Virus record (IMG/VR): IMGVR_UViG_3300047372_000605 | Coordinates: 28,959-92,958 of that record | Origin: a virus | Reading direction: 5' to 3' (one strand) | DNA length: 64,000 nucleotides | Shown here: in pieces, positions 12,522-40,224 of the stretch | Position numbering within the stretch: position 1 is the stretch's first letter | Layout of the letters: the number at the start of each line of letters is the position of its first letter | Notes under the pieces: generated by a model | Database searches by the model: none | Told to the model about the DNA's origin: nothing | The model's input: the letters and a program-made list of their open reading frames with translations, nothing else | Program-made: the position numbers and the translations under genes

Positions 12522-12530
12522 CTATTAAAT

Positions 12531-12607
<77 letters not shown>

Positions 12608-12621
12608 CTAAAATTAAATAA

Positions 12622-14087: not shown

Positions 14088-14093
14088 AAAATT

Positions 14094-14249: not shown

Positions 14250-14805
14250 AATATTACTTATACTTTTAGTTTTAATAGGTTGCAATAAAGAAGATGAAGA
14301 TGGTTATAGAGTTTATACTATAGATAGAGGTAACCATTACTCAGATGGCCCTATAGATAAATTATTTGGTAATAATAATAGAGCTGAATCATGGGAATGG
14401 GAAGTTATATTTGAACCATCTTGTATTTACTCAGAATCAGATTTATTTAATCCCTCAAATTATTTAGACGTTAATAAATTAATAGGTTTTTCAGATTGTG
14501 ACAGACACCATTCTCAATATTCATGTAGAATAGGTTGGAGAGCATCAGGTGATTCTATTGAATTACTAATATATAAGAGGGATGATAATAATATAGAATT
14601 TAAATCCCTTAAAAAAGTATACCCAGACCAAATAGTAAACGTTACTTTAGATTTTAAAGACACTATTTACACATCTTGTATAGATGGAACTTGTGATACG
14701 TTAATAAGACCTTGTCCAGATTGGTCAGGTAGAAAATATTCACTGTTTCCATTCTTTGGTGGTCAAGAAACGGCACCACATAAAATGAAAATTAGAATAA
14801 AATGA
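14236..14805 (+). CDS. Lipoprotein of unknown function (TTG start)
   Basis: The TTG at 14236 gives the compact signal MKASKILLILLVLIGC, a typical lipobox with the lipidated Cys at residue 16; a TTG at 14230 is a two-codon-longer alternative. No ATG serves the frame. The mature part is about 170 aa, with several cysteine pairs (SCIYSES, SDCDRHHSQYSCR, CIDGTCDTLIRPC) that suggest disulfides, and aromatic strands. A role in superinfection exclusion or envelope change is possible but not shown. It overlaps the next gene by 4 nt. Confidence 0.65.
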   Translation: MKASKILLILLVLIGCNKEDEDGYRVYTIDRGNHYSDGPIDKLFGNNNRAESWEWEVIFEPSCIYSESDLFNPSNYLDVNKLIGFSDCDRHHSQYSCRIGWRASGDSIELLIYKRDDNNIEFKSLKKVYPDQIVNVTLDFKDTIYTSCIDGTCDTLIRPCPDWSGRKYSLFPFFGGQETAPHKMKIRIK

Positions 14806-15239
14806 AAAAATACAATGTAGATTGGGATGAAATAAAAGCTTTAGTATTCAGGCTATCCCATAAAATAATTACCAACGATTTAGAATTTAAAAACATATAT
14901 GGTTTACAAAGAGGAGGTTTAATACCTGCAGTAATGTTATCTCACCAATTAGGAATACCTATGGCTAAAGGTGATATAGGACCTGACACTTTAATAGTAG
15001 ACGATATTTGTGATAGTGGAGAAACACTAGATAATTTAGTAAAAAAATATCAAACATTATATTCTTACCCATTTAACCTTAAAACAGCAGTTTTACATTA
15101 TAAACCTCATACTTCATGTTTTGAACCAACTTTATATGCCGAAAAATGGAATAAGGATGTTTGGTTAATATATCCTTGGGAAAAAGAAGATTCAGAAGCT
15201 ATACAAGATTACAAAGTAAAAGTTGGAGAATTGCAATAA
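14802..15239 (+). CDS. Phosphoribosyltransferase (type I, purine type)
   Basis: A 145-aa protein with the PRPP-binding signature TLIVDDICDSGETL (about residues 64-77), the hood-like QRGGLIPAVMLSHQLG segment and a C-terminal VWLIYPWE, similar to Gpt-type xanthine/guanine phosphoribosyltransferases. It would salvage a purine-like base into the nucleotide. Its place between the queuosine-type genes and folE suggests a link to purine supply or deazapurine handling, but the substrate cannot be told from sequence. Confidence 0.8.
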   Translation: MKKYNVDWDEIKALVFRLSHKIITNDLEFKNIYGLQRGGLIPAVMLSHQLGIPMAKGDIGPDTLIVDDICDSGETLDNLVKKYQTLYSYPFNLKTAVLHYKPHTSCFEPTLYAEKWNKDVWLIYPWEKEDSEAIQDYKVKVGELQ

Positions 15240-15254
15240 TTTTATTATATTAAC
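15223..15254 (+). promoter_or_regulatory. Bacteroidota-type promoter, TTGG-N19-TATATT
   Basis: TTGG at 15223-15226 lies inside the end of the phosphoribosyltransferase gene and is followed after 19 nt by TATATT at 15246-15251. It sits 15 nt upstream of folE, so FolE supply could be controlled separately from the upstream que genes. Confidence 0.6.
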
Positions 15255-15268
15255 GTAAAAATTAGTTA

Positions 15269-15964
15269 ATGGAGAACAAACGAAGAAAAATACACGAGGA
15301 GTTAGAAGTAGTAAAAGAAGGTTTTGCAAACGGAGTTGCACCTGGTTTTCCACTCCCACAATCTGAAAAAGATAAGATGATAGATAAAGCAGAATTGGCG
15401 TATGGTCAATTTTTAGATGCTTTAAAATGTGATTGGAGAAATGATCCAAATTCAATGGAAACACCTAGACGTGTAGCTAAAGCTTATGTTAATGATTTAT
15501 GGGCGGGTAGATACACAGCAATGTCTCCTATTACATCTTTTCCTTCTGATGGTTATGATGGTATTATTATAGAAAGAAACATACCTTTAACATCAATGTG
15601 CTCTCATCATCATCAAACAATTGGAGGTGTAGTTCATATTGGTTATATAGCAGGAGAAGGTGGTCAAGTAATTGGGTTATCAAAACTAAACAGAATTGTA
15701 GAATTATTTGGTAGAAGAGGAGCAATACAAGAGCAACTAACCTCAGCAATTCATAATGCCGTATCTAAAATTACAGAAGGTAATAAAGGTGTTATAGTTA
15801 CAATAGTAGGTACTCATAATTGTGTTAGTTGTAGAGGAGTAAAACATCAAGGAGCAGCCATGGTTACAACTAAAGCTTCAGGTGTGTTTAGAGAAAACGA
15901 TAATTTAGCTAGAAAAGAATTTTTTGACAGCCTAAAGATTAACAACGGAGGGCATAATATATAA
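15269..15964 (+). CDS. folE: GTP cyclohydrolase I
   Basis: This is the first step from GTP to dihydroneopterin triphosphate, the entry to both folate and 7-deazaguanine synthesis. Zinc ligands are intact: SMCSHHH and HNCVSCRG. Other family segments are GYIAGEGGQVIGLSKLNRIVE, shown in part, and QEQLTSAI. An N-terminal extension of about 45 residues precedes the domain. At 231 aa it is normal in length. With QueC, QueD and QueE in the same window it completes the route from GTP to preQ0. Confidence 0.95.
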   Translation: MENKRRKIHEELEVVKEGFANGVAPGFPLPQSEKDKMIDKAELAYGQFLDALKCDWRNDPNSMETPRRVAKAYVNDLWAGRYTAMSPITSFPSDGYDGIIIERNIPLTSMCSHHHQTIGGVVHIGYIAGEGGQVIGLSKLNRIVELFGRRGAIQEQLTSAIHNAVSKITEGNKGVIVTIVGTHNCVSCRGVKHQGAAMVTTKASGVFRENDNLARKEFFDSLKINNGGHNI

Positions 15965-27362: not shown

Positions 27363-27551
27363 ATGAATAATAAAAAAGAAAAAACACTAACCAGTGTTAA
27401 AATACAAAGTGATTTATTTCAAGATTTCAAAATAGAGTGCGTAAAACGTAAATTTTCCTTCCAGAAACTTGCCGACCGTGCTATTTATTTGTATCTTACA
27501 GATGAAGATTTTAGAAGAACGATTAGTAATCAAACCAATTTAGAATTATAA
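27363..27551 (+). CDS. Small ribbon-helix-helix-like DNA-binding protein
   Basis: A 62-aa protein (TSVKIQSDLFQDFKIECVKR, FSFQKLADRAIYLYL) with the strand-helix-helix outline of RHH regulators. It stands alone behind its own possible promoter and just before the 11 kb glycan cassette, so it could be a regulator of that cassette or a general one. The fold is inferred from pattern only. Confidence 0.55.
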   Translation: MNNKKEKTLTSVKIQSDLFQDFKIECVKRKFSFQKLADRAIYLYLTDEDFRRTISNQTNLEL

Positions 27552-27552
27552 A

Positions 27553-29010
27553 ATGAATAAAGATTATAAGTACCTTCCTAAAGACCAAAGGAAAAAAATA
27601 CTACTAATATGCGATGATATTAGAGTACATTCAGGGGTAGCAACTATAGCCCAACAAATTGTTAAAAAAACATGCCAACATTATAATTGGGTTCAAATTG
27701 CAGGGGCAATTAAACACCCTGATCAAGGTAAAAAATTATCACTAGATAAAGAAATGGCAAAAGAGACAGGAGTAAAAGATCCAAGTATAATGTTATATCC
27801 AGTACATCAATATGGTGATAGCACTTTTCTTAGACAAATTATCAACCACGAAAAACCAGATGCTATAATGATATTTACAGATCCTAGATATTTTGCTTGG
27901 TTATTTGCTATAGAAAATGAAATTAGAAAAAATATCCCTATTATATACCTTAATATTTGGGATGATTATCCAGCTCCTTTATATAATAAAGAATTTTATG
28001 AGTCGTGTGATTTATTATTTGGAATTTCAAAACAAACAGTAAATATAAATAAAATTGTTTTAGGAGATAAGGCAGCGGATAAAATTATAGAATACCTTCC
28101 ACATGGTTTAGACCATACTGATTATAAACCTTTATCTGAGTATAATGAAGAAGAAAGTAAGGGGTTAGAAAAAATGAAAAAGTATTTTTTTGGTAAAGAT
28201 GAAGTAGATTTTTGTTTATTTTTTAATTCTAGAAATATTAGGAGAAAGCAAATTCCTGATACATTATGGGCTTTTAGAATGTTTTTAGATAATTTACCTA
28301 AAGAAAAAGCAGATAAATGTAGATTTTTATTACATACAGAGATGGTATCTGAAGCAGGAACTGATTTAAGAGCTGTAGCTGAATTATTATTCGGAGATGG
28401 TAAATATCCTAAAGCTATTATTTTTGATACTAAAAGATGGGAAGTTAAAGACTTAAGATACTTATATAATATTTCAGATTGTCAAATTCTTTTAACATCA
28501 AATGAAGGATGGGGATTAACAATAACAGAGGGGATACTTTCAGGTAACCCTATTATAGCTAATACAACAGGAGGAATGCAAGATCAAATGAGATTTAAAG
28601 ATGAAAAAGGAAAATGGTTTACACCATCACCAGAAGTACCTTCAAATAATACAGGCAAATATAAAAAACATGGTGAATGGGCATTTCCGGTTTATCCAAC
28701 TTCTAGATCACTTCAAGGATCACCTGTTACACCTTATATTTGGGATGATAGATGTAAACCTGAAGATGCAGCTGATAGAATAAGAGAAGTATATGATTTA
28801 GGACCAGAAAAGAGAAAAGAAGCAGGTCTTAAAGGTAGAGAATGGGCACTCAGTGATGAAGCTGGATTTACAGCTGAGGCACAAGGTAAAAAATTTATCG
28901 ATGTTACTGATAAATTATTTAATACCTGGGAGTCAAGAGAAGCTTTTGAAGTAATAGATACTGATGAAGCTAATATTTTAAGAATTCAAACACATGATTT
29001 AGTATATTAA
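27553..29010 (+). CDS. Glycosyltransferase, GT4-like
   Basis: A 485-aa GT-B enzyme. The N-terminal domain has ILLICDDIRVHSGVATIAQQ; the C-terminal donor domain has FFNSRNIRRKQIPDTLWAF and LTSNEGWGLTITEGILSGNP, in pieces, which includes the E-x7-E motif of GT4. It is the first gene of the glycan cassette and is followed 1 nt later by another GT4-like gene. Donor and acceptor are unknown. Confidence 0.82.
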   Translation: MNKDYKYLPKDQRKKILLICDDIRVHSGVATIAQQIVKKTCQHYNWVQIAGAIKHPDQGKKLSLDKEMAKETGVKDPSIMLYPVHQYGDSTFLRQIINHEKPDAIMIFTDPRYFAWLFAIENEIRKNIPIIYLNIWDDYPAPLYNKEFYESCDLLFGISKQTVNINKIVLGDKAADKIIEYLPHGLDHTDYKPLSEYNEEESKGLEKMKKYFFGKDEVDFCLFFNSRNIRRKQIPDTLWAFRMFLDNLPKEKADKCRFLLHTEMVSEAGTDLRAVAELLFGDGKYPKAIIFDTKRWEVKDLRYLYNISDCQILLTSNEGWGLTITEGILSGNPIIANTTGGMQDQMRFKDEKGKWFTPSPEVPSNNTGKYKKHGEWAFPVYPTSRSLQGSPVTPYIWDDRCKPEDAADRIREVYDLGPEKRKEAGLKGREWALSDEAGFTAEAQGKKFIDVTDKLFNTWESREAFEVIDTDEANILRIQTHDLVY

Positions 29011-29011
29011 T

Positions 29012-30334
29012 ATGAAAAAAACAGTTATAATAAGTTGTCCTATAGACACATACTCAGGTTATGGAGCAAGAGGAAGAGATGTAGTTAAAGCATTTTATGA
29101 GTTAGATAATTACGATGTAAAAGTATTACCTCAAAGGTGGGGAGATACACCTTGGGGTTTTATAGATGACCATGAAGAAGAGTGGGGTTTTTTAAATCCT
29201 CTTTTAATAACCCCAGAAACGGGTCAATTACAACAGCCTGATATTTGGGTGCAAATAACAATACCTAATGAATTTATGCCTCAAGGAAAATTTAATATTG
29301 GTATTACTGCAGGGATTGAATCTAATTTAGCACCTGCTGATTGGCTAGTAGGATGTAATAGAATGAATTTAGTATTAGGTTCATCTAAACATACAATTGA
29401 GGTTCTTAAAGCTAGTAAATGGGAACAACAAGATAAAAGAACAGGTCAAAAACAATCAGTAATGGTAAACCCTAACTTACCTATGGATATTTTATTTGAA
29501 GGTTTTAATGAAAAAAATTATAAAAAAACAACTGATAAATTAGATTTGCCCGAAATTAAAGAACAGTTTTGTTTCTTATTTACTGGAATGTGGATTCAAG
29601 GAGACTTTGGACATGATAGAAAAAATATAGGAGTAATGATAAAAACATTTTTAGATACTTTTAAAAATAAACAAAAACAACCAGCTTTAATTCTTAAAAC
29701 AAGTGCTGGAAGTGCTTCTTATTCTAGTAGACAACAAATATTAAAAAGAATTAATGATATTAAATCTCAAGTAAAAGGCAAATTACCTAAAATATATTTA
29801 ATTCATGGAGATCTTACTGATGGAGAAATGAATCAGTTATATAACCACCCTCAGGTAAAATGTATGGTTAGCGCTACAAAAGGAGAAGGATTTGGTAGAC
29901 CATTACTTGAATTTACCCAAACTAAAAAACCTATAATAGCTTCAGGTTGGTCAGGTCATGTTGATTTTCTTAAACCAGATATGAGTTATTTAGTTCAAGG
30001 GAAATTACATAATGTTCATCCAAGTGCAGCTAATAAATGGTTAGTTAAAGAATCTCAATGGTTTGACATTGACACAGCAGCTTTAAATAATGCTTTTAAA
30101 ACGATATATTTAAAATATAAAGACTGGGTTGTAAGAGCTAAAAAACAGGGAAACTTTACTAAAGAAAATTTTAGTTATACAGCTATGAAAGAAAAATTAG
30201 GTAATATTTTAAAAGAAAAAACTGGGAATATGCCTCAACAAGTTGGGTTGAGTTTGCCTAAACTTAAAAAAGTAGGAAAAAATGATAAACCTGAACTTCC
30301 TAAATTAAAACTACCCAAACTTCAAAAATTGTAA
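29012..30334 (+). CDS. Glycosyltransferase, GT4-like
   Basis: A 440-aa protein. PIDTYSGYGARGRDVVKAFY matches a GT-B acceptor domain start, and VSATKGEGFGRPLLEFTQTK with the E-x7-E pattern followed by PIIASGWSGHVDFL marks the donor domain. The C-terminal 40 residues are a Lys/Leu/Pro-rich repeat (LPKLKKVGK, LPKLKLPKLQKL) that may bind another protein or membrane. It is probably a partner of the gene before it. Confidence 0.8.
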   Translation: MKKTVIISCPIDTYSGYGARGRDVVKAFYELDNYDVKVLPQRWGDTPWGFIDDHEEEWGFLNPLLITPETGQLQQPDIWVQITIPNEFMPQGKFNIGITAGIESNLAPADWLVGCNRMNLVLGSSKHTIEVLKASKWEQQDKRTGQKQSVMVNPNLPMDILFEGFNEKNYKKTTDKLDLPEIKEQFCFLFTGMWIQGDFGHDRKNIGVMIKTFLDTFKNKQKQPALILKTSAGSASYSSRQQILKRINDIKSQVKGKLPKIYLIHGDLTDGEMNQLYNHPQVKCMVSATKGEGFGRPLLEFTQTKKPIIASGWSGHVDFLKPDMSYLVQGKLHNVHPSAANKWLVKESQWFDIDTAALNNAFKTIYLKYKDWVVRAKKQGNFTKENFSYTAMKEKLGNILKEKTGNMPQQVGLSLPKLKKVGKNDKPELPKLKLPKLQKL

Positions 30335-30336
30335 AA

Positions 30337-30798
30337 ATGGAATCAGATAAATTACAAATTTGTCCCAGATGCGGATCCGACGCTTGTTATGTTACTGAGG
30401 TAAATCAAGATATAAATAATTATTATTGTTATGGTTGTGGTTTTCAATCTAATACTTTATTAAGAGAAGGAGAATTATTATTTGATGAACAAATGGAAAC
30501 TTTACCAGAATTGTATAAAGATCTTAAATTTGAAGATAAAAATGGTCAAATGTGGTTTCCTACAACTGTAAATTTAACTGAGCAAGGAATGGTATTTGCA
30601 AATGGCTCTTCAACCGAAAACTGGAAATGGGGAGCAGTTTTAGCAATTGAAGTAACAGAAGAAGAAAAACATAAATACCCTATCCCCGGAAAAGAAAATG
30701 AGTTTTATAAATGGAGAATGGATATGAGTACATTAAAACAGTTTGAAGAACGTGATTTTATGGAAGCTCTTTCGTATATTGGAGTATTACCAAGTTAA
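30337..30798 (+). CDS. Zinc-ribbon protein
   Basis: A 153-aa protein with a four-Cys zinc ribbon near its N terminus (CPRCGSDACYVTEV then YYCYGCGFQ). The rest is mixed alpha/beta with a WKWGAVLAIEVTEEE strand. It lies within the glycan cassette, 2 nt after a glycosyltransferase. The function is unknown. Confidence 0.65.
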   Translation: MESDKLQICPRCGSDACYVTEVNQDINNYYCYGCGFQSNTLLREGELLFDEQMETLPELYKDLKFEDKNGQMWFPTTVNLTEQGMVFANGSSTENWKWGAVLAIEVTEEEKHKYPIPGKENEFYKWRMDMSTLKQFEERDFMEALSYIGVLPS

Positions 30799-30801
30799 GA
30801 T

Positions 30802-31425
30802 ATGAAAATAAGTTATGCAATTCCAGTTTGTAATGAATTTGTAGAAATTCAACGTTTATTAGGTTTTTTAATGCAAAATAAACGTAAACAAGATGAAATT
30901 ATAGTATTATATGATACTAATAATGGTACAATTGAAGTAGAAAAAATTTTAAATCATTACTTGCAATTAAACCAATATTCTTTATATAAATCACCTTTTA
31001 ATAAACATTTTGCAGAGTGGAAAAATCAATTATCTTCTTATTGTACTGGGGATTATATTTTTCAAATAGATGCAGATGAAATGATTACAGAAGTTTTAAT
31101 TGGTAATTTACCTACTATACTAGAAAATAATCCCAATAATGAAGTTTATTTAGTCCCCAGAGTAAATACAGTATCTGGTTTAACTCAAGAACATATTACA
31201 AAATGGGGATGGAATGTAGATAAAGAAGATAGGGTAAATTGGCCTGATTATCAATGGCGTATTTGGAAAAATAAACCTGAAATAAAATGGGTAAATAAGG
31301 TACATGAAAAATTAGAAGGATTTAACACTTATGCTCCACTTCCTCAAAATCCTGAATTAGCTCTACAGCATCACAAGACAATAGAAAGACAAGAAAAACA
31401 AAATAATTATTATGACACATTATGA
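30802..31425 (+). CDS. Glycosyltransferase family 2
   Basis: A 207-aa GT-A enzyme. ISYAIPVCNEFVEIQRLLGF is the nucleotide-binding start; FQIDADEMI holds the DxD metal motif; the acceptor end has EIKWVNKVHEKLEG, a segment common in GT2 enzymes. It is short for GT2 but all core parts are present. It overlaps the HAD-like gene by 4 nt. Confidence 0.82.
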   Translation: MKISYAIPVCNEFVEIQRLLGFLMQNKRKQDEIIVLYDTNNGTIEVEKILNHYLQLNQYSLYKSPFNKHFAEWKNQLSSYCTGDYIFQIDADEMITEVLIGNLPTILENNPNNEVYLVPRVNTVSGLTQEHITKWGWNVDKEDRVNWPDYQWRIWKNKPEIKWVNKVHEKLEGFNTYAPLPQNPELALQHHKTIERQEKQNNYYDTL

Positions 31426-31715
31426 AAATTTATGTAGATATTGATGAGACAATATGTTTTTATGATGGAGAACGTGAATACCCCAACGCTATACCTAGTA
31501 AAGAAAATATAGCTAAAATAAATAAGTTATATGATGAAGGTCATGAAATAACTTATTGGACAGCAAGAGGAACTGTTACGGGCATTAATTGGTTTAATTT
31601 AACAAAAGAACAACTTACAAAATGGGGATGTAAATGGCATAGTTTAGTTGTTGGTGTAAAACCTGCTTATGATTTACTGATATGTGATAAAACTAAAAGA
31701 ATAGAAGAAATATGA
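31422..31715 (+). CDS. HAD-superfamily phosphatase-like protein
   Basis: A 97-aa protein. DIDETI (D6, D8) is HAD motif I and YWTARG is motif II. The C terminus VGVKPAYDLLICDKT fits motif III/IV, with Lys and Asp. Such short HAD proteins often sit in capsule clusters. In a sialic acid route a phosphatase step (as in Neu5Ac-9-P removal) could be meant, but NeuB of this type works without it. ATGA overlaps on both sides. Confidence 0.68.
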   Translation: MKIYVDIDETICFYDGEREYPNAIPSKENIAKINKLYDEGHEITYWTARGTVTGINWFNLTKEQLTKWGCKWHSLVVGVKPAYDLLICDKTKRIEEI

Positions 31716-32413
31716 AAAATGAAATATTAGATAATTTAAATAAAGTAGGAATATGTGTAATTGAAGATTATTTCAATTCGGATTGGTGTGATAAAGCAGT
31801 ATTAGACTTAGAGGATTCTTTAATAACTTATAAAGATAAGATACAATCTGAAGCTAAAGAGGAAACATCTGGGGATTTTAGAATATTTAAGATGGAAAAT
31901 CAATATGATACTGCTAAAACATTTGCTAATGATAATTTTTTATTAGATATTGGTAGTGAATATTTTGGTTATAAAATAGTTAGTCATTTTGTATTAGGAG
32001 GAAAAGTTCAATATAATCCAAATCAAATAACTAATAGTGGAGGAGGATGGCATAGAGATAATAGAGGTAAACAGATAAAAACAATTGTATATCTTACAGA
32101 TGTAGAAGAAACATCGGGTCCTTTTTCATTTTTACCTTTATCTAATCAGTTCGATCTACAAACTAGAGATGGTATTGGAAAAGCAACAAGATATGATGAT
32201 GATATAGTTAATGAATTTTGTAAAAAAAATAATATAGAACCTTTTAAGGTAATAGGAAAGAAAGGAACTATAATTTTTGTAGATACATCTTACATACACA
32301 GAGGTTTAAATATCCAATCAGGTTCTAGATATACTTACACTAATTATTATTTTGAGGATCATCCCCAACGATTCCAACTAACAGAAGATAAATGGGGTAA
32401 AATGTTCATATAA
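31712..32413 (+). CDS. PhyH-like Fe(II)/2-oxoglutarate dioxygenase
   Basis: A 233-aa protein. WHRDNRG supplies the HxD iron ligands, FSFLPLSNQF matches the phytanoyl-CoA dioxygenase pattern, and FVDTSYIHRGLN supplies the distal His, with SRYTYTNYY holding the 2OG-binding Arg. It would hydroxylate a small molecule, lipid or sugar made by the cassette. It overlaps the HAD gene by 4 nt and the next gene by 1 nt. Confidence 0.78.
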   Translation: MKNEILDNLNKVGICVIEDYFNSDWCDKAVLDLEDSLITYKDKIQSEAKEETSGDFRIFKMENQYDTAKTFANDNFLLDIGSEYFGYKIVSHFVLGGKVQYNPNQITNSGGGWHRDNRGKQIKTIVYLTDVEETSGPFSFLPLSNQFDLQTRDGIGKATRYDDDIVNEFCKKNNIEPFKVIGKKGTIIFVDTSYIHRGLNIQSGSRYTYTNYYFEDHPQRFQLTEDKWGKMFI

Positions 32414-33474
32414 TGGCTCATATTTTTAAATATCCTAAAGATAATAGTAAAGGTATTATAGTTTTTACTCATAAGGAATGGCCTTGGTTGCTACAAAATG
32501 CTTTATCAACCCTCCAGGATTTAAAACAAATGTTTTACTTAGGTTGGAACCAAGGAACATATTTTGGAGAAATTCAAATGCCTAATATTGTTGATTTTTC
32601 ATTCTCATCTCCTTCTACTCTTACTTATAAAGATAATGGAAATACTTTATATATTCCTTTATGTGGGAGAAATTTTTTAACTAGTGATTTTAAGAATTTA
32701 GATATTAAAGAAAAAAATTTTGATATAATATCAACTAGTAGAGCAGTTAAAATTAAACAACTCCCCCCATTATTACATTCTATTAAAAAGTTAAACAATA
32801 GAGGAATATATCCTAAAACTTTATTTATAATTCCCACAGCCGAAAATGAAACCCCAGAATATGCTGATATTAATATTGTAAAAACTTTTAATGAATTATT
32901 TACTGTTGAAGAGAAAAAACATATAACTATGATGAGGCTCTCTCCAGAATTAGGTTTTTTAGGAATTAATCAACAAACTTTAAATTGGTTTTATAATAAT
33001 AGTAAAATACTTTACATAGGATCTAAAAGTGAAGGAAATTGTAGAGTAGTTCATGAAGCTCTTATGGGTGGATGTAATATTGTTTATTATAAAAACCATA
33101 AGGGAGCTTTAGTGGATTATTTAGATAAAACTAATAGTACATCATATGATACCCATGAAAATATTGATATCGCATTAGAAAAGGCTTTAAAAAGTTATAC
33201 TTACTCAAAAATAAAAACAGATTCTTATGAAGACATTTTAAGTGAGAGAACTTCATTGAAAAAATTAATCCCCTATTTTGAAAAATTATATGAGTTAAAT
33301 AATTCAAAATTTGATGGAGAATTAATAAATTATGATAATTTATCCAATAGATTCCCAGCTCATTATTTAGATGTTCCTTGGAATAGCAAAGATCCTAAAG
33401 TCCCAACGGCTGATATTAAAACTCTAGATCAGTTAACTATTTTCATAAATTATATAAATGGAAATTGGAATTAG
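32413..33474 (+). CDS. Putative GT-B glycosyltransferase
   Basis: A 353-aa protein. The C-terminal half has LYIGSKSEGNCRVVHEALMGG, in part, then CNIVYYKNHKGALVDYL, which resembles the donor-binding region of GT4-type enzymes, with the E ... E helix. The N-terminal half is not recognised. It closes the first half of the cassette, and its end contains the -33 box of the neuB promoter. Confidence 0.55.
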   Translation: MAHIFKYPKDNSKGIIVFTHKEWPWLLQNALSTLQDLKQMFYLGWNQGTYFGEIQMPNIVDFSFSSPSTLTYKDNGNTLYIPLCGRNFLTSDFKNLDIKEKNFDIISTSRAVKIKQLPPLLHSIKKLNNRGIYPKTLFIIPTAENETPEYADINIVKTFNELFTVEEKKHITMMRLSPELGFLGINQQTLNWFYNNSKILYIGSKSEGNCRVVHEALMGGCNIVYYKNHKGALVDYLDKTNSTSYDTHENIDIALEKALKSYTYSKIKTDSYEDILSERTSLKKLIPYFEKLYELNNSKFDGELINYDNLSNRFPAHYLDVPWNSKDPKVPTADIKTLDQLTIFINYINGNWN

Positions 33475-33496
33475 TAAAAATTTATCGTATATTTGA
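33465..33496 (+). promoter_or_regulatory. Promoter of the sialic acid genes, TTGG-N19-TATATTTG
   Basis: TTGG at 33465-33468 and TATATTTG at 33488-33495 are 19 nt apart. TATATTTG is a perfect match to the Bacteroidota -7 consensus TAnnTTTG, the best in the window. It lies 40 nt upstream of neuB, so the sialic acid genes can be expressed on their own. Confidence 0.72.
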
Positions 33497-33535
33497 AAAG
33501 CAATAGTTTAGTATAAACAAATAAAAAATAAAAAT

Positions 33536-34999
33536 ATGTTATATATATTTGAAATGGCAAATAATCATATGGGTAGTGTTTCCCATGCCAAAACTATCAT
33601 TGATGAATTTGCAAATTTATCAAAAAAATGGAAAATAACAGCAGGAATTAAATTACAATTTAGAAATCTAGATACTTTTATTCATCCTGATTTTCAACAG
33701 CGTAATGATTTAAAATATGTTAAAAGATTTAATGAAACTAGATTATCTAAATCAGAATTTAAAGAAATAGTTGATTATATTAAATCTACGGGATTATTAG
33801 CCATTACAACTCCTTTCGATAATGAATCAATCCCTATGACTTCAGAATTAAATATTGATGTATTAAAAGTAGCAAGTTGTTCTGTGGATGATTGGCCCTT
33901 ATTAGAAGAATTATCAAATATAAATAAAAAAATAATTATATCAACTGCAGGGGTTGAGTTAAATACTTTACGTAAGGTTTATAGAATATTTAAACAAAAA
34001 AGAAGAGATTTTGCATTTATGCATTGTGTTGGTGAATACCCAACAGCTAACGAAGTTGCAAATTTAAATAGAATTAAAGAATTAAAAAATGAATTTCCTG
34101 ATATAGAAATAGGATTTTCAACACATGAATCTCCTTTAGAAAAATCAATGACTCCTTATGCTGTAGCTATGGGATGTACAATAGTTGAAAAACATGTTGG
34201 GGTGCCTACAGATGAATGGTCTTTAAACGCTTATTCATTAACCAGTAATCAAATGGATAAGGTATTGTTTGAAATTGATGAATTATTAAGAGCATCAATA
34301 GGTAAATCTAATGAGCAAATTAAATCATTAAAATCTTTAAAACGTGGAGTTTATGTAAAAAATGATCTAAAAAAAGGCCATAAAATTAGTAAAAATGATA
34401 TATATTTTGCAATGCCAGTTCAAGATGGTATGCTAGATGCTTCTAACTATTATGATATTTTAAATTCTCATATTAAAACAGATAAAGTAAAAAATGAAGG
34501 GTTATATTTAAGTAATGTTGTAAATTTAGATCGAAAAGAAATAATAGAAAAAATAAAATCCCAAGTTAAAAAACAACTATCAGAAGCTAATGTTACAATT
34601 ACGGATAAGGATGATATAGAAATTTCATCTCATTATGGGTTAGAATCATTTTTTGAAACAGGTTGTGTTATTATTTCAAAAATCAACCGTAAATATTGTA
34701 AAAAAATATTAGTAGTTTTACCAAATCAATCTCATCCTACCCATAGACATATGATAAAAGAAGAATCATTTGAATTATTATCTGGAGATTGTAAATTAGT
34801 TTTAAATGGAAGGGATATAGATCTTAAATTAGGGGAACCAAAGCTTATTAATACAAAAGTTGATCATTCTTTTAGTAGTAAAAAAGGATGTGTAGTAGAA
34901 GAAGTGTCAACAACTCATATTCCTGGGGATTCTATATATCAAAATCCTGAGATAAATAAATTATCTTTAAGTGAACGTAAAATTAAAATATCTTTATAA
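33536..34999 (+). CDS. neuB: Sialic acid synthase (NeuB/SpsE) with SAF and cupin domains
   Basis: This enzyme joins phosphoenolpyruvate to an N-acyl-mannosamine-type sugar to make a nonulosonic acid. NeuB features in order: FEMANNHMGSVSHAK, GIKLQFRN, TTPFDNESIP, HCVGEYPTANEVANLN, GFSTHE and MGCTIVEKHVGV. An SAF (antifreeze-like) domain follows at about 265-325 (RGVYVKNDLKKGHKISKNDI). An extra C-terminal region of about 100 aa looks like a cupin (HPTHRHMIKEESFELLSGD). At 487 aa it is about 140 aa longer than typical NeuB because of this. It starts the set NeuB-NeuA-GT29. Confidence 0.9.
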   Translation: MLYIFEMANNHMGSVSHAKTIIDEFANLSKKWKITAGIKLQFRNLDTFIHPDFQQRNDLKYVKRFNETRLSKSEFKEIVDYIKSTGLLAITTPFDNESIPMTSELNIDVLKVASCSVDDWPLLEELSNINKKIIISTAGVELNTLRKVYRIFKQKRRDFAFMHCVGEYPTANEVANLNRIKELKNEFPDIEIGFSTHESPLEKSMTPYAVAMGCTIVEKHVGVPTDEWSLNAYSLTSNQMDKVLFEIDELLRASIGKSNEQIKSLKSLKRGVYVKNDLKKGHKISKNDIYFAMPVQDGMLDASNYYDILNSHIKTDKVKNEGLYLSNVVNLDRKEIIEKIKSQVKKQLSEANVTITDKDDIEISSHYGLESFFETGCVIISKINRKYCKKILVVLPNQSHPTHRHMIKEESFELLSGDCKLVLNGRDIDLKLGEPKLINTKVDHSFSSKKGCVVEEVSTTHIPGDSIYQNPEINKLSLSERKIKISL

Positions 35000-35003
35000 A
35001 AAT

Positions 35004-35621
35004 ATGGGTACTCATTTCATAATACCTGCTCGAAAAAATTCAAAGGGATTTACTTATAAAAATAGATTTTTATTTGAAAATTTACCTTTAGAACTAAAAG
35101 ATAAAAATACTATAATTACTTCTGATGATGAAGTTATTAAAAAAATGAATCAACAACTATATAATTTTAATTTTTTAAAACGCCCTTCCCATTTATCAGA
35201 AGATACAACCAGCATAAAACCTGTATTAGAGCATGTAGTATCTGAATATAATCTTCCTCCAGAAGATGATTTAGTTGTATTATATTTAACTTACCCTGAA
35301 CGCACTTATGATGATATTGAAAGGATACTTACTTTTTACCATCATTGGAAAGGGGAGTCATTGTTATGTAAAGAACCTTTAAAACAACATCCTTATTTAT
35401 GTTTTTATGATAAAGGAATTTATGGTAAACGTATTGTTGATCATAATATGTACCGTCGTCAAGATTATCCAAAATGTTTTTTTGGATCCCATTATGTAGC
35501 AATTGTCAAAGTAAAATTTTTATCTTCAGTTGATTTAAATCTTTATAGTAAAAAAACTTTATTTTATGATTTGCAAGAGCATAAAATTGATGTTGATAAT
35601 AAAAGTGATTTACCCCTATAA
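35004..35621 (+). CDS. neuA: Acylneuraminate cytidylyltransferase (CMP-sialate synthetase)
   Basis: This enzyme activates the sialic acid with CTP. FIIPARKNSKGF and KNRFLF match the IPARxxSKxxxxKN nucleotide loop. TIITSDDEVI, LKRPSHLSED and a VVLYLTYPERTYDDIE segment (where typical enzymes have LQPTSPLR) follow the family order. It is 205 aa from ATG 35004; an in-frame upstream ATG at 34971 lies inside neuB and is less likely. It directly follows NeuB and precedes the GT29 gene, which strongly supports the assignment. Confidence 0.82.
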   Translation: MGTHFIIPARKNSKGFTYKNRFLFENLPLELKDKNTIITSDDEVIKKMNQQLYNFNFLKRPSHLSEDTTSIKPVLEHVVSEYNLPPEDDLVVLYLTYPERTYDDIERILTFYHHWKGESLLCKEPLKQHPYLCFYDKGIYGKRIVDHNMYRRQDYPKCFFGSHYVAIVKVKFLSSVDLNLYSKKTLFYDLQEHKIDVDNKSDLPL

Positions 35622-35637
35622 AATCTAATTAAATGTA

Positions 35638-36288
35638 ATGATAGTAAATATAAACGATACTAATTTTAACTTATTTTTAAATTCCAATACATCTTTTTTT
35701 AATAATTTAAATGATAAATCAGTAGCGGTAGTTGGAAATAGTGGTATTTTATTAGATAATGAATATGGGTCTAAAATAGATAAACACGATATTACCATTA
35801 GGTTTAATGCTGCTCGAGTTAAAGGATATGAAAAAAATGTGGGTTCTAAAACTGACATAAGACTTATGAATGGTCATATATTTAATGGAAGTTCTAACCC
35901 TAAAAGATTTAAAAAAAATGATCCAAATTTTACTTCAAATTTAAATAATGAAACTTTAATAGTTAAATCATGGAATCAACAAGAATTTGTAGAAGGAATA
36001 CTAAAAACCACTCCCCAAAATAAAGTTTATTTTCTTAATCCTCCTTTTACTCAATATTGTAATTCTTTAACTGGTCAAGAAGCTACTTGTGGTGTGGTAG
36101 GGGTATTGTTTTTAAGTTTATTTACTTCTAAAATTTCTTGTTTTGGGTTTAATTTTTATAAAGATGGTTGGTCTAAAAATCATTATTGGGAAGAGATGGA
36201 AGAATATAAACAAGGACATTCATTTAATGTTGAGGAACAATTATTTGATCAATTAGAACAAGAAGGAAAAATAAAAATATTTAAATGA
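35638..36288 (+). CDS. GT29-family sialyltransferase
   Basis: A 216-aa protein with all four sialylmotifs of the mainly eukaryotic GT29 family. Motif L is at about 27-78: VAVVGNSGILL, DKHDITIRFNAA, VGSKTDIRLMN. Motif S is about 143-162 (SLTGQEATCGVVG). Motif III is HYWE (182-185) and motif VS is H194-x4-E199. There is no signal or membrane anchor, so it works in the cytoplasm. GT29 enzymes use CMP-sialate (some use related CMP-sugars), which the upstream NeuB and NeuA would supply. The acceptor is unknown. It overlaps the next gene by 4 nt. Confidence 0.85.
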   Translation: MIVNINDTNFNLFLNSNTSFFNNLNDKSVAVVGNSGILLDNEYGSKIDKHDITIRFNAARVKGYEKNVGSKTDIRLMNGHIFNGSSNPKRFKKNDPNFTSNLNNETLIVKSWNQQEFVEGILKTTPQNKVYFLNPPFTQYCNSLTGQEATCGVVGVLFLSLFTSKISCFGFNFYKDGWSKNHYWEEMEEYKQGHSFNVEEQLFDQLEQEGKIKIFK

Positions 36289-38309
36289 ATTATACGATTG
36301 AAAAGTTTGACTTAGAAAATTATAAATTTAATTTTGCTCAATGGTCTCATCCCTATTGTTCTCCTAAAAAATTTACCCAAGAACAAATAAATACTCAAAC
36401 TACATATTTAAATAAGGGAGATATTGTAATTGACATTGGAGCTTTTTCTGGAGATACTCCTGTCTTATATGCTAATGCTGTTGGAAAAAAAGGTAAAATT
36501 ATTTCATTTGAAGCTAATCCACATGCTTATGAGATTTTAGAAGTTAATTCAAAACTAAATAATCATTTAAATATAATCCCTATAAATAAAGCAATCACTG
36601 AAAAACCAGGAAAATATACATTTCATTACTCAGATAAAGGATTTTGTAATGGAGGTTTTGCTGAAGAAATTGATATGGGAGTTGGAGCTACAGGTCATGT
36701 GGTACCTTTAGAGGTAGAAGGGGTAAATCTAACAAATTGGTTAGAAAATAATTTAGATAAACAAGAATGGGATAAAATAAGCTTTATTAAAATTGATACT
36801 GAAGGCTATGATTATAAAATTTTAAGATCAAATAAAAAGCTATTTAAACAAATTAGACCCATTTTAGAAGTTGAATTATATCCTGCTTTATCATTAAGAG
36901 AAGTAAAAGAATTTTATAAAATATTAAAGGAAATAGGATATGAAGTATTTCAACAAAATAAAGGAAGAGATTGCTCTTTAAATTCTTTAACTACTAGTTT
37001 GGATGAACGAGGATTTATTCGTACATTTAAAAATATAAAAAGTGGGCAAGATATAGTAGCATATCCTAAAGAAAAAGTACCTAAAGAAAAATTAAAACAA
37101 CCTATGAAAATTAGTTTAATACAACCAAGTAGAAATAACTTAAAATACCTTAAATGGTCTTACAATTCAATTCGTAAAAATCAAGGTGATCATGAAGTAG
37201 AAATTTGTGTTGCTGATGATTTTAGTAATAAAGATAATACTTGGGAGTGGTGTCAAGAAATGATGGAAAAAGATCCATTATTCAAGGCAATTAGAAATGA
37301 AGGCCCAACACGTTTAGGCCATACTATATTATATGATACTCTGGTAAATGACGTGGCTACCAGCGATGTCTGTATGATTTACCATGCTGATATGTACTTA
37401 TGTCCTGGTGCTTTAGATGCGATTGAAAAACATTTAAAAGAAAAAACAATAGTATCACTTACTAGAATTGAACCACCATTACATCCAGATGGGCCAGAAA
37501 AAGTATTAAGAGATTATGGTATAGAACCTGAGGAGTTTAAGGAAGATTTGTTACTAAATAATTTAGGTAGTTCTGATTTTACAGGGCCTGGTCTTAATAC
37601 AACAACAGAAGGTATATTTGCACCTTGGGCATTCTGGAAGAAAGATTTTCAAGAGATAGGAGGACATGATCCTATATTTGCACCTCAATCAAAAGAAGAC
37701 ACAGATATATTTAATCGCTTTCATTTAAACGGAATTAAGTTTATCCAAACATGGGAAGGATTTGTTTATCATATGACTTGTAGAGGTAGTAGATTTGCAG
37801 ATGGAGCCCAAAGAAATCCAAATGGTGAAGTGTTCATGAAAAACCGAGAAACAGATGAATGGTTAAAACAAAATCAAAAATCCACTAGAGAATTTTTACG
37901 TAAATGGGGCCATTTTTGCAAACATGATGCTTTAATGAAACCAATTGTCCCTCCCAAATATGATATTGGTATAATATTAACAAATACAAAAATAGAACAA
38001 TTAGAATTACTAGAACCATGGTGTTCAAACATTTATACAGATGGAGATTATGTGGCTTACCAACAACAAGAATCTTTAAAAACCTCATTTGATTTAAATG
38101 ATAGAGTTAGAATTTTAGAATCTGGAAAAATTAATAATATACTAGTTAATATTGATGGAAATACTTTTACCCAATCTGATTTCCAAATATTACAACAACT
38201 TTCAGAAATAATTCAAGATAGTGGAGAAGTTGGAGAATTTGAATTAGGTAATTTAAAAATTAAAATTAATGATTTAAAAACTTATGAAAATACTTTAATT
38301 AAAGTATGA
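36285..38309 (+). CDS. FkbM methyltransferase - GT2 glycosyltransferase fusion
   Basis: A 674-aa two-enzyme protein. Residues about 40-240 are an FkbM-type SAM methyltransferase (GDIVIDIGAFSGDTPVLYAN, ISFEANPHAYEIL, FIKIDTEGYDYKIL). Residues about 275-535 are a GT-A/GT2 domain (MKISLIQPSRNNLKYLKWSY, CVADDFSNKDNTW, MIYHADMYLCPGALD with the DxD-like HAD, and a later KEDTDIFNRF). A C-terminal helical tail of about 120 aa follows. The fusion suggests methylation and sugar transfer on the same glycan, perhaps capping it with an O-methyl sugar. It ends the cassette. Confidence 0.82.
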   Translation: MNYTIEKFDLENYKFNFAQWSHPYCSPKKFTQEQINTQTTYLNKGDIVIDIGAFSGDTPVLYANAVGKKGKIISFEANPHAYEILEVNSKLNNHLNIIPINKAITEKPGKYTFHYSDKGFCNGGFAEEIDMGVGATGHVVPLEVEGVNLTNWLENNLDKQEWDKISFIKIDTEGYDYKILRSNKKLFKQIRPILEVELYPALSLREVKEFYKILKEIGYEVFQQNKGRDCSLNSLTTSLDERGFIRTFKNIKSGQDIVAYPKEKVPKEKLKQPMKISLIQPSRNNLKYLKWSYNSIRKNQGDHEVEICVADDFSNKDNTWEWCQEMMEKDPLFKAIRNEGPTRLGHTILYDTLVNDVATSDVCMIYHADMYLCPGALDAIEKHLKEKTIVSLTRIEPPLHPDGPEKVLRDYGIEPEEFKEDLLLNNLGSSDFTGPGLNTTTEGIFAPWAFWKKDFQEIGGHDPIFAPQSKEDTDIFNRFHLNGIKFIQTWEGFVYHMTCRGSRFADGAQRNPNGEVFMKNRETDEWLKQNQKSTREFLRKWGHFCKHDALMKPIVPPKYDIGIILTNTKIEQLELLEPWCSNIYTDGDYVAYQQQESLKTSFDLNDRVRILESGKINNILVNIDGNTFTQSDFQILQQLSEIIQDSGEVGEFELGNLKIKINDLKTYENTLIKV

Positions 38310-38701
38310 AAGATAAAAAATCAAAAAAATCTATTACTATTGGGGGTTTAAAACTTCAAATAGAACAAAATCCTAAAAAGATAGAAAATAAACATAAGAA
38401 ATTTTTTATTCATCTTTTAAATAGATTAGTTTCAATTCAAGAACGTACTGATAAGATATTTACCCAATATGGTTTAAATCTTATAATGTATGAGGATCTA
38501 TATTTTCAAGTAATAGAAGATATGGTATATGAGCATTATGATATAGAAGTAGGCGAAGTTATATTTTGGTATGTTAATGGGGTTAAAATTGAAGATGAAG
38601 ATCAATATATAGAAGATAAAAAAACAGGGAAAAAATATAAAGCAAAAACACCCTTACAAGTATATAATGTTTGTAAAAAATTAAAGTTATTTAAAGATTA
38701 A
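38306..38701 (+). CDS. Hypothetical protein after the glycan cassette
   Basis: A 131-aa protein with a basic N terminus (KDKKSKKSITIGGLKLQIEQ), a helical middle (FFIHLLNRLVSIQERTDKIF) and an acidic strand-rich end. It overlaps the fusion gene by 4 nt. No family is recognised. Confidence 0.65.
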   Translation: MKDKKSKKSITIGGLKLQIEQNPKKIENKHKKFFIHLLNRLVSIQERTDKIFTQYGLNLIMYEDLYFQVIEDMVYEHYDIEVGEVIFWYVNGVKIEDEDQYIEDKKTGKKYKAKTPLQVYNVCKKLKLFKD

Positions 38702-38704
38702 TAT

Positions 38705-39016
38705 ATGTATCAAACAAAAACAATGGAAAAATTAGAAATGATGGAATGTCCTCAATGTGATGGACCTATGCCTGTAAAACGAAGAGAATTAGGTTATCAT
38801 GTTTGTGTTAATTGTTCTACAGTTTCAGCTAAAAGAGGTATACCTGTAATGAGAGGAACAGGTGACCATACTTGGGTTGATTTAGAAGTAATGACACAAG
38901 AACAATTTGAGAGATATGAAGAGATGGAAAACAAAACCAAAACTGAAATAACTCCAAATAAAACTGAAGGTAGAAATCTACAAGGCCCATTTACAATAGT
39001 AGAAACCGATAATTAA
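38705..39016 (+). CDS. Small zinc-ribbon protein
   Basis: A 103-aa protein with a CPQCDGPMPVKR ... YHVCVNCST zinc ribbon at about residues 14-40 and an acidic, low-complexity end. It overlaps the next gene by 1 nt (TAATG). A role in DNA or RNA binding is likely from the ribbon, but no target is known. Confidence 0.62.
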   Translation: MYQTKTMEKLEMMECPQCDGPMPVKRRELGYHVCVNCSTVSAKRGIPVMRGTGDHTWVDLEVMTQEQFERYEEMENKTKTEITPNKTEGRNLQGPFTIVETDN

Positions 39017-39663
39017 TGCCTGCGGCAAAAAGTTTTACAAAAGAACAAATTTTGAATGCTATGGATAAAACTCAATCCGTAGCTGGTGCTGCTCGTTACT
39101 TAAATTGTTCTTACCAACATCTTAAAAAATACATGAAATTGTATAAAGATGAAGAATCTGGTAAAACCTTATTTGAAATACACCTAAATCCTTCAGGAAA
39201 GGGTATACCTAAATTTTTAACTAATGGAAAAAAAGATCCTGCTTTATTAGATATAATAGAAGGTAGATTAAATCCATCTTCATTTTCACCTGATAAATTA
39301 AAATATAGATTAACAACTGAGGGTTATTTAGAAGAATGTTGTGGTAATTGTGGGTTTCAAGAGCATAGAGTAACAGATCATAAGGTACCTTTAATATTAC
39401 ATTTTAAAGATAAAAATAAATTAAATTATAACTTAGATAATATTGAATTTTTATGTTATAATTGTTATTTTTTATTTATAGGAGAAGTATTTACTGAAAG
39501 AGACATACAAAAATTAGAAGATAATAAATCAGTCACTAAAACTACTAATGCTGTAGATATGCAACTAGATGACTATCATTTACAAAGATTGCGGGAGCTA
39601 GGTCTAGATGGTGAAAATCCCACAGACGAAGATGATCCTTATAATTTAGTTTCATATAGATAA
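39016..39663 (+). CDS. HNH-type zinc protein with N-terminal helix-turn-helix
   Basis: A 215-aa protein. Residues about 8-35 look like a helix-turn-helix (TQSVAGAARYLNCSYQHLKK). At about 112-155 is an HNH-like zinc fold: CCGNCGF, then VTDHKVPLILHF, YNLDNIEFLCYNCYF. The second zinc pair (CYNC) and the N-x2-N segment are intact, while the last His of HNH is replaced by Tyr or Phe. It may therefore be a binding protein rather than an active nuclease. It resembles freestanding phage HNH proteins. Confidence 0.62.
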   Translation: MPAAKSFTKEQILNAMDKTQSVAGAARYLNCSYQHLKKYMKLYKDEESGKTLFEIHLNPSGKGIPKFLTNGKKDPALLDIIEGRLNPSSFSPDKLKYRLTTEGYLEECCGNCGFQEHRVTDHKVPLILHFKDKNKLNYNLDNIEFLCYNCYFLFIGEVFTERDIQKLEDNKSVTKTTNAVDMQLDDYHLQRLRELGLDGENPTDEDDPYNLVSYR

Positions 39664-39695
39664 TTTGCCAATGGTATCTTGCCTTCATATATTTA
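39664..39695 (+). promoter_or_regulatory. Bacteroidota-type promoter, TTTG-N20-TATATTTA
   Basis: TTTG at 39664-39667 is followed after 20 nt by TATATTTA at 39688-39695. The next start codon is only 6 nt downstream, so the transcript would have almost no leader, as for the promoter at 9529. Confidence 0.6.
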
Positions 39696-39701
39696 TGGGC
39701 G

Positions 39702-39878
39702 ATGAAAAAAATCAAACCTCTTCTTAAAAAAAAGAAACATGACAAAATTGTAAAAGATTTTGACAAGCAAAAAGCTAAGCATGTAGAAAAATTAGCTACA
39801 CAAATGCTCAAAAAAGATGAGCAGTTTCAAAAACTTAAGGAGAAAAAGATAAATACTAACTTTTTAAAATTGTTTTAA
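39702..39878 (+). CDS. Small lysine-rich protein
   Basis: A 58-aa ORF that is about one third lysine (KPLLKKKKHDKIVKDFDKQK) and helical. It starts directly after a promoter and stops 1 nt before the next gene. The strong positive charge suggests nucleic acid or ribosome binding. Confidence 0.6.
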   Translation: MKKIKPLLKKKKHDKIVKDFDKQKAKHVEKLATQMLKKDEQFQKLKEKKINTNFLKLF

Positions 39879-39879
39879 C

Positions 39880-40224
39880 ATGGCAACAGAATTTGAAGTA
39901 CAAAATGCGGAAGAATTTGAGAAATTAATCCGATCAAGAGATTTTAGAGTATACGAAGCACTAGTTAGTACAGTATTAAAAAATCTTACTAGTAAAAAAC
40001 GCCATCACCATGCTTTAAGTGTAATAAGCACAGATGAAGATGCTGTATATGATATTACAATTGATAAGCAAGATTTTCATCACACATTAGAAGAAAGTCT
40101 AATAGCATACGAAGAACAAGAAAAATATGAGAAATGTGCTGAAATTAAAAAAGCAATGGACTTTTTAGATAAAAAAAAAGCTGAAAAAAAATTAACTTCT
40201 ATCATGGATTCCTTGGCTACCTAA
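39880..40224 (+). CDS. Hypothetical protein with a UVR-like helical hairpin
   Basis: A 114-aa protein, acidic and helical. The segment LIAYEEQEKYEKCAEIKKAM (about residues 75-94) resembles the UVR/McsA helical hairpin (AxxxEdYExAaxxrDxI). The upstream KKRHHHALSV is unusual. It is in the same transcript as the lysine-rich ORF. No enzyme activity is indicated. Confidence 0.55.
   Translation: MATEFEVQNAEEFEKLIRSRDFRVYEALVSTVLKNLTSKKRHHHALSVISTDEDAVYDITIDKQDFHHTLEESLIAYEEQEKYEKCAEIKKAMDFLDKKKAEKKLTSIMDSLAT

Follow-up and report, generated by a model that had tools for sequence, protein, structure and literature searches.

Here, we describe a viral gene set that consists of an ulosonate synthase, a compact cytidine monophosphate (CMP)-ulosonate synthetase and a transferase of glycosyltransferase family 29 (GT29). 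The three genes are adjacent in a stretch of 64,000 nucleotides, in the following called the window, which corresponds to bases 28959-92958 of the IMG/VR virus record IMGVR_UViG_3300047372_000605 (record length 92958 bases). The phage is an Immutovirus-like marine myovirus, and the trio sits in a variable glycan locus. Sister phages keep the GT29 gene and carry other genes for the synthesis of its putative donor sugar. We read this swap of donor genes, our strongest new result, as the mark of an exchangeable CMP-ulosonate capping cassette. Judged by sequence comparison and structure models, the locus probably holds a self-contained cassette of this kind in an exchangeable glycan slot, most likely one that decorates the virion. 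Its central features are:

33536..34999, + strand: ulosonate synthase with NeuB domain, SAF domain and a C-terminal D-lyxose/D-mannose-isomerase-like cupin (Pfam, profile and fold evidence)
35004..35621 (open reading frame, ORF, from GTG 34971), + strand: putative compact CMP-ulosonate synthetase, NeuA/PseF-like (weak profiles, motifs, viral relatives)
35638..36288, + strand: GT29 transferase of cytoplasmic type, 216 amino acids (aa) (Pfam, motifs, predicted fold)
31422..31715, + strand: small HAD-type phosphatase, DxDxT present (two weak matches, EcbF-BcbF at E 0.007 and Hydrolase_3 at E 0.097)

The ORF list confirms the positions that a first-pass annotation, made from the letters alone, had given for the trio.

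The variable slot lies between a GT2 glycosyltransferase gene (30802) and position 38306. Among 18 distinct complete slots, which include the window, L009 and L091 (loci are referred to by L numbers) as slots selected for having GT29, three carry a GT29 gene. In all three, GT29 is accompanied by an ulosonate synthase and a CMP-synthetase, neither of which occurs in the other 15. The exchange is most clearly seen in the sister phage L146. Compared with the window, it has kept the PhyH-like dioxygenase (73% identical), a fusion of an FkbM methyltransferase with a GT2 glycosyltransferase (66%), the GT2 enzyme (59%), a GT1/GT4-like glycosyltransferase termed GT1x (56%) and the GT29 protein (47%), whereas its NeuB is only 24% identical and its NeuA gives no BLAST match. 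In addition, it encodes a NeuC (401 bits, cut-off 235.9). L091, L148 and L150 likewise have a NeuC above the cut-off together with a dehydratase, and the NeuB proteins of these four phages reach 382-390 bits, just below the N-acetylneuraminic acid (Neu5Ac) synthase cut-off of 399.65. In L009, the slot holds GT29 together with KdsA and a synthetase that resembles PseF (130.9 bits, cut-off 205.7). Of three NCBIfam models for KdsA, one accepts the L009 protein (268 bits, cut-off 242), while its scores on the other two are too low (254 of 314 and 184 of 457). Going by these family assignments, the modules of the L146/L091 type would fit Neu5Ac and that of L009 a Kdo (3-deoxy-octulosonic acid) type, next to the NeuB-cupin type of the window. 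The GT29 ORF is intact in the window, L009, L091, L146 and L148. Exchange of the donor genes among sister phages speaks for a surface trait that varies.

Further loci show the same parts in other arrangements. L157 carries, in a row, GT29 (30% identical), compact NeuA (44%), NeuB-cupin (54%) and GT1x, and L093 combines NeuB-cupin (53%), GT29 (37%) and GT1x (31%) with a different, PseF-like synthetase. L013 is 83-92% identical to the window in DNA on both sides of the slot and has a different sugar pathway inside, with genes that by eye belong to methyltransferase, glycosyltransferase, oxidoreductase, acyltransferase and deacetylase families. Two side observations were made: an ORF resembling IMP dehydrogenase/GMP reductase (by eye) lies between GT29 and FkbM-GT2 in L146 (8645-9760), and the related phage L034 encodes, 3' of the frame genes (13928-15610), a protein in which an HMGL-type aldolase domain is fused to a CMP-Kdo synthetase of KdsB type, with no GT29 found there.

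Sequence and model agree that the product of 35638..36288 is a real GT29 protein. It matches the Pfam family PF00777 (Glyco_transf_29) with E 1.1e-29 and 104.1 bits (cut-off 23), and its best sequence match in the PDB is pig ST3Gal1 (E 3e-12), with HYWE aligned. The sialylmotifs L, S, III and VS, which had been recognised in the first-pass annotation, align with ST3Gal1 and 20 other rows: VVGNSG at 31, VGSKT at 68, ATCG at 149, HYWE at 182 and H194-x4-E199. H182 and H194 match what we take to be the catalytic pair of ST3Gal1, and ten phage GT29 sequences show no variation at H182, Y183, H194 and E199. An AF2 model (17 rows) has a predicted local distance difference test score (pLDDT) of 86.2 and a predicted template modelling score (pTM) of 0.86, and its 30 best PDB matches are all mammalian GT29 enzymes. 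With VIA-align, the 14 best entries are all GT29 (Z 16.8-19.6), led by ST3Gal1 (Z 19.6, root mean square deviation 2.6, 193 residues); next come the unrelated pterin kinase HPPK (Z 11.4) and, at approximately 11, CstI and CstII of family GT42. The profile search and the structure comparison, both proposed at the outset as checks, are thus in favour of GT29, and a mere coincidence of motifs was rejected since profile and fold agree. PHROGs has no family for this protein.

The anchor and disulphide of the animal Golgi-type enzymes are missing, as the protein has no membrane anchor and carries Val at the motif-L Cys position. This supports the earlier suggestion that transfer takes place in the cytoplasm. 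A hydropathy scan of the 12 ORFs of the locus gave no likely membrane protein; the single peak (1.81) is the motif-S stretch 153-171 of GT29, which lies mid-fold in the model. As a gene set, synthase, synthetase and transferase also support the idea that the phage makes, activates and transfers a sugar.

In total, 20 distinct viral GT29 loci were counted, and 12 of them have NeuB or KdsA within approximately 8 kb, in 11 cases together with a CMP-synthetase. In contrast, 77 loci of this phage lineage collected via the GT4 gene (many of them short; the best 80 of 414 related stretches of viral DNA were taken) contain one NeuB, one CMP-synthetase and no GT29. Left out of the 20 are the duplicates L006, L092, L096, L098 and L108, which are 99.5-100% DNA-identical to L007, L009, L095, L097 and L107 over the shared length; L101 and L095 (76-79% identical where alignable) were counted separately. 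L146-L155, among which L149 duplicates L148 (99.97%), and the loci from the CMP-synthetase search stand outside the 20. The viral loci include the huge-phage record LR756508 (484 kb, four GT29 ORFs) and the 223-kb contig L008. In 50,697 phage records, the GT29 proteins of the window and of L009 matched LR756508 only, a record without annotation, and that of L101 had no match. Searches with a single protein or a broad alignment gave no viral GT29, and a first bacterial search was likewise negative. In LR756508, the four GT29 ORFs (L002, 10728-15546) stand around a NeuB without SAF and adjoin a small HAD phosphatase. On the 56.8-kb viral contig L094, seven GT29-type frames in a row (2665-8555) are followed by CMP-synthetase and NeuB, and a search of the whole record found 8 GT29-matching stretches.

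The synthase passes both Pfam cut-offs, for NeuB (PF03102; E 4.2e-39, 134.9 bits, cut-off 22.1) and for SAF (E 1.1e-4, 23.1 bits, cut-off 21), and so is the NeuB-type enzyme with SAF domain that had been named from the sequence. A feature missed at that stage is the C-terminal cupin. It matches Pfam Lyx_isomer with 23.5 bits (cut-off 20.8) over a short stretch only, and by profile the D-lyxose isomerase 2y0o (3.7e-17) and the D-lyxose/D-mannose isomerase 7nzo (1.3e-15). The best fold matches of a cupin model (3 alignment rows, pLDDT 85) are 7nzq, 7nzo and 7nzp. Nine NeuB-cupin proteins can be aligned end to end, eight of which are 36-53% identical to that of the window, and His400, His405, Glu410 and His444 are kept in all nine rows; a role of these residues in metal binding may be inferred. 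The best solved relative is 3g8r (E 2.4e-74), which bears the provisional name 'probable spore coat polysaccharide biosynthesis protein E' only, and Neisseria NeuB follows far behind (4.5e-20). From these alignments, we assign the synthase to a separate, 3g8r-like NeuB-SAF-cupin subfamily. PHROGs gave no match naming NeuB; the synthase matched a family of cysteine dioxygenases with its cupin part, and also a family of unknown function. The NeuB proteins of L007, L008, L095, L101, L106 and L107, of approximately 280-310 aa, stop before the SAF domain, and NeuB frames of similar length occur in many loci fetched through the compact CMP-synthetase.

The sugar itself is probably not ordinary Neu5Ac. 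On the Neu5Ac synthase model TIGR03569, the synthase scores 133.3 bits against an equivalog cut-off of 399.65. Met293 is found in place of Arg314 of the Neisseria NeuB SAF domain, which presumably contacts the N-acetyl group; L091 retains the Arg. The first reading as sialic acid is therefore not upheld, given the missed cut-off, the absent Arg314 and a different subfamily with an isomerase-like domain, and plain Neu5Ac was dropped as the default donor on the first two of these grounds. As a guess, the product could be a sugar like Kdn (the deaminated sialic acid). A passage of PMC6200933 reports Kdn synthesis in Bacteroides thetaiotaomicron.

For the second gene, the verdict is mixed. The residues AR...SKG...KN and DxD, which we take to be the nucleotide-binding and metal-site residues of CMP-synthetases, are retained in the window protein and three relatives, but the single-protein scores stay under the curated cut-offs, also for the PseF model TIGR03584 (E 2e-6, 27.6 bits, cut-off 205.7). 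A relative in L008 exceeds the Pfam cut-off. The gene is likely to start at ATG 35004, directly after the NeuB stop, instead of GTG 34971. Relatives of this compact enzyme were found in 74 viral loci, 55 of them distinct after removal of 19 that were more than 95% alike. NeuB is present in 45, HAD in 36 and GT29 in 21 of the 55 loci, where the query had been built from synthetases adjoining GT29. Five of them (L192, L208, L212, L218 and L223) lie on contigs already known from the GT29 search; on new contigs, GT29 occurs in 16 of 50.

The small HAD gene tends to occur together with a synthase. It was found in 10 of the 12 synthase-bearing GT29 loci and in none of the 8 others (Fisher p 7e-4), and in 36 of 45 NeuB loci against none of 10 others (p 3e-6; L226, L215 and L210 are short); as the rows share ancestry, these p values are not proper probabilities. 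No HAD was found in L091, L146, L147, L148, L149 and L150, five of which have NeuC, and L094 shows NeuB with neither HAD nor NeuC in view. These partial data give weak support to the protein as an ulosonate-phosphate phosphatase.

Donor, order of steps, acceptor and purpose of the cassette can then be pictured as follows. The isomerase-like domain would provide an aldose of the mannose or lyxose type for the NeuB domain, which would join it with phosphoenolpyruvate to a 3-deoxy-2-ulosonic acid, most likely a non-aminated, Kdn-like one; the small HAD protein may strip a phosphate along the way. The compact NeuA-like enzyme would use cytidine triphosphate to yield the activated CMP-ulosonate, and the cytoplasmic GT29 would transfer the ulosonate onto a glycan built by the other glycosyltransferases of the phage. 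The FkbM domain may add a methylation. Most likely, the acceptor is a glycan on a virion protein.

Several observations weigh against such a cassette. In 8 of the 20 viral GT29 loci, neither synthase nor CMP-synthetase is nearby, although several of these loci are incomplete. The CMP-synthetase of the window reaches only 17.6 bits on PF02348 (cut-off 22.6). In the 21-row GT29 set, H182 is replaced in several distant viral and bacterial rows, as is H194 in two of the three rows from L094. The slot of L019 has a HAD without a synthase, and L157 has NeuB-cupin with no HAD found in its incomplete locus. The bacterial relatives of the synthase point in the same direction. Of 398 genomes sampled from the phylum to which the organism of L090 (titled Mesorhizobium) belongs, 12 have NeuB-cupin relatives at E <= 1e-30, 11 of them near full length, and 10 of these 11 genomes (L131-L141) belong to one class with 48 sampled genomes. 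Around the 11 genes, a CMP-synthetase occurs once and GT29 never, whereas an acetolactate-synthase-like thiamine diphosphate (ThDP) enzyme is near six and a dehydratase/epimerase-HAD fusion, with a HAD like the phage one, near four. (The count was made without the ORF filter, which had hidden the one CMP-synthetase, in L141.) Because of these neighbours, the subfamily may make something other than an ulosonate; the neighbourhood points to a polysaccharide sugar, not to which one. The cupin may also be regulatory.

With respect to purpose, it is rather unlikely that the cassette acts on the host surface, where it would cap lipopolysaccharide, capsule or another glycan and hide receptors from competing phages or superinfection. 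Sugar-capping enzymes could use host precursors in the cytoplasm, a rapidly swapped slot suits receptor competition, and the annotated slot of the isolate phage immuto (see below) also has sugar-nucleotide and glycosyltransferase genes. Yet no flippase is seen, given that the 12 ORFs of the locus include no likely membrane protein, and a lytic life style, to which the gene content points, would leave little time for re-coating the cell. A GT29 that is lectin-like or an inactive relic carried along with the slot is hardly credible: the eight loci free of donor genes and the histidines lost in distant relatives would fit a relic, as opposed to the four invariant residues in ten phage sequences and the intact ORFs in five phages.

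Regarding the donor, replacement of NeuB by KdsA in the L009 slot and the likeness of the cupin to D-lyxose isomerase would suit an eight-carbon, Kdo-like acid with a pentose, e.g., lyxose or arabinose, as its source. We consider this unlikely, as the characterised NeuB-type enzymes, to our knowledge, take six-carbon sugars. Still less probable is Neu5Ac formed from N-acetylmannosamine supplied by the host. Membership of the synthase in the NeuB family, the fact that the solved GT29 enzymes are sialyltransferases and the NeuC-NeuB pair in L091, L146, L148 and L150 speak for it; the TIGR03569 score, Met293, the lack of NeuC within 8 kb in the window and the much closer relationship to 3g8r than to Neisseria NeuB speak against it. 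On balance, virion decoration with a CMP-activated, non-aminated ulosonate is the reading that we prefer.

That GT29 is known mainly from animals and plants, as assumed at first, does not hold in view of the many phage loci and the bacterial members published in PMC5811610. The main text of that report, in which the sialylmotif names are also used, describes the bacterial enzymes as free of a membrane domain and of the disulphide cysteines and argues for a bacterial origin of animal GT29; the words 'virus', 'viral' and 'phage' are absent from it. In our samples, bacterial GT29 occurs in 9 of 398 genomes of one phylum (including the seed, chosen for GT29) and in 2 of 337 genomes of one class (one being the seed). 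These proteins match PF00777 more weakly than that of the window, at best with 1e-8 to 1e-5 in the 398 genomes and 2e-13 in the class. One bacterial GT29 domain is confined to residues 273-454, at the C-terminal end of a frame of 455 aa (L144, 751-2115) in a 1.4-Mb genome, and GT29 is present in 2 of 4 sampled genomes of the order of L144.

Two trees were calculated. The first had 45 rows, with L107 and L117 dropped by length, and drew animal GT29 inside phage GT29. The second (37 rows) is free of long branches; ten rows were dropped for it (L116, L111, L109 and seven viral ones) and two bacterial rows (L144 and L145) were added. Both trees are without L151-L155, the loci from the CMP-synthetase search and the Alteromonas, Idiomarina and Loktanella GT29 of PMC5811610. 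In the second tree, a branch (96/97) separates the three mammalian rows, together with 12 core phage rows, from the sampled bacteria and other viruses. Nesting of the animal enzymes within phage GT29 was not upheld, and a phage clade without the mammals was not rejected (approximately unbiased test, p 0.39).

The remaining features of the locus are listed here:

27553..29010, + strand: ORF resembling a glycosyltransferase, leftmost in the glycan locus (glycosyltransferase annotated at the matching position in immuto)
29012..30334, + strand: conserved frame gene on the left side, for a GT4-type glycosyltransferase (Pfam Glycos_transf_1 below cut-off, E 1.9e-4)
30337..30798, + strand: zinc-finger-like conserved frame gene (its own profile matches most frame loci; two CxxC pairs)
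30802..31425, + strand: GT2 glycosyltransferase, conserved frame gene (Pfam Glycos_transf_2 E 1.9e-9)
31712..32413, + strand: PhyH-like dioxygenase (Pfam PhyH E 6e-6, above cut-off)
32413..33474, + strand: GT1x, which accompanies the trio (Pfam Glycos_transf_1 E 3.9e-5, below cut-off)
33465..33495, + strand: promoter match TTGG-N19-TATATTTG (sole exact + strand match in the window, not significant alone)
36285..38309, + strand: FkbM methyltransferase-GT2 glycosyltransferase fusion (Pfam Methyltransf_21 E 3.7e-16 and Glycos_transf_2 E 5e-10; TIGR01444 E 2.4e-25)
38306..38701, + strand: conserved right frame gene, function unassigned, no Pfam family (frame-gene profile comparison)

The Pfam matches of both domains confirm the fusion that the first-pass annotation had placed after GT29. 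Relatives of GT1x occur in L091, L093 and L146, and in L157 by profile only. The pattern TTGG-N19-TATATTTG, which we take to be a Bacteroidota-type promoter, had been called the best promoter of the window. The string is unique on the + strand, but the statistics do not single out the site. A looser pattern has 9 + strand matches compared with 5.0 (range 2-9) in 30 Markov copies, and site 33465 is the only one of these with a listed gene starting 10-150 bases 3' of it. Scored as a sigma-70 promoter (87 sites in 27400-40000, 80.4 expected), it is ordinary, so that its rank as best promoter is at most plausible.

Outside the locus, the window encodes tail sheath and tube, a UvsX-like recombinase, clamp loader, ribonucleotide reductase and GroEL. 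The nearest isolate is Flavobacterium phage immuto from the Baltic Sea (tail sheath 46%, GT4 protein 51% identical), whose annotated genome has a matching gene frame with a different sugar gene set between. As immuto has the same frame, we infer a marine member of the Bacteroidota as host. L010-L012 from other metagenomes are 99.98-100% DNA-identical to the window and represent the same phage assembled again; L012 extends into NeuB, up to window base 33836. At 10861-13392, ORFs resembling queuosine-precursor genes (by eye) surround a tRNA Ser-Gln-Ala cluster (12359-12608), and immuto is annotated with QueF.

Each gene family described here is already known. Searches of open full text, titles and abstract openings gave no description of phage GT29 or of a donor swap, and the open literature yielded no paper on a phage with neuB, neuA and virion, none on NeuB with a cupin and no described product of a NeuB-cupin fusion. 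For lack of such a product, this fusion is a clean enzymology problem. Animal cells receive their sialic acid caps from GT29 enzymes, and a small, apparently soluble phage GT29 together with donor synthesis is a source of compact candidate sialyltransferases as well as a new sequence set close to the eukaryotic branch. Taken as a whole, GT29 with interchangeable donor modules of Neu5Ac, Kdo and NeuB-cupin type might let related phages display different acidic sugars, much like O-antigen variation. Of the groups sampled, that of the phages lies closest to the animal enzymes, and phage genes could thus be among the sources of eukaryotic GT29. We regard this joint picture as possible and put it forward tentatively. 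Donor exchange in one slot opens to test the idea that phages diversify the acidic sugars of virions or hosts in the way known from bacterial surface antigens.

Compared with known systems, the GT29 of the window has fold and sialylmotifs in common with the mammalian enzymes (ST3Gal1, 2wml/2wnb; ST6GalNAc2; ST8SiaIII; ST6Gal1), but with only 216 aa it has neither their signal anchor nor the motif-L disulphide cysteine. In both respects it resembles the bacterial GT29 of Petit et al. 2018 (PMC5811610), whereas the bacterial GT29 sampled here fall on another tree branch than its phage group. The synthase shares domain order and 36-54% full-length identity with bacterial and phage NeuB-SAF-cupin proteins, with 3g8r covering the NeuB and SAF part; its neighbours are CMP-synthetase and GT29 in phages and often a ThDP enzyme or HAD fusion in bacteria. 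Bacterial neuB-neuC-neuA operons for sialic acid are well known. All three genes are found in the slots of L091, L146, L148 and L150, while the window has no nearby NeuC, another type of synthase and CMP-synthetase, and a GT29 transferase. Phage immuto (vB_FspM_immuto_2-6A, Immutovirus) has the same frame of two glycosyltransferases, an unknown gene and GT2, closed by HNH; its slot differs in carrying aminotransferase, pilin glycosylation and epimerase genes, and the phage was not matched in the GT29 search. Phage-borne ulosonate synthesis is also represented by Synechococcus phage S-SCSM2R, with KdsA and KdsB annotated and no match in the GT29 search, and by the marine viral auxiliary genes kdsA and kdsB, in a passage of PMC10653327 that does not mention GT29.

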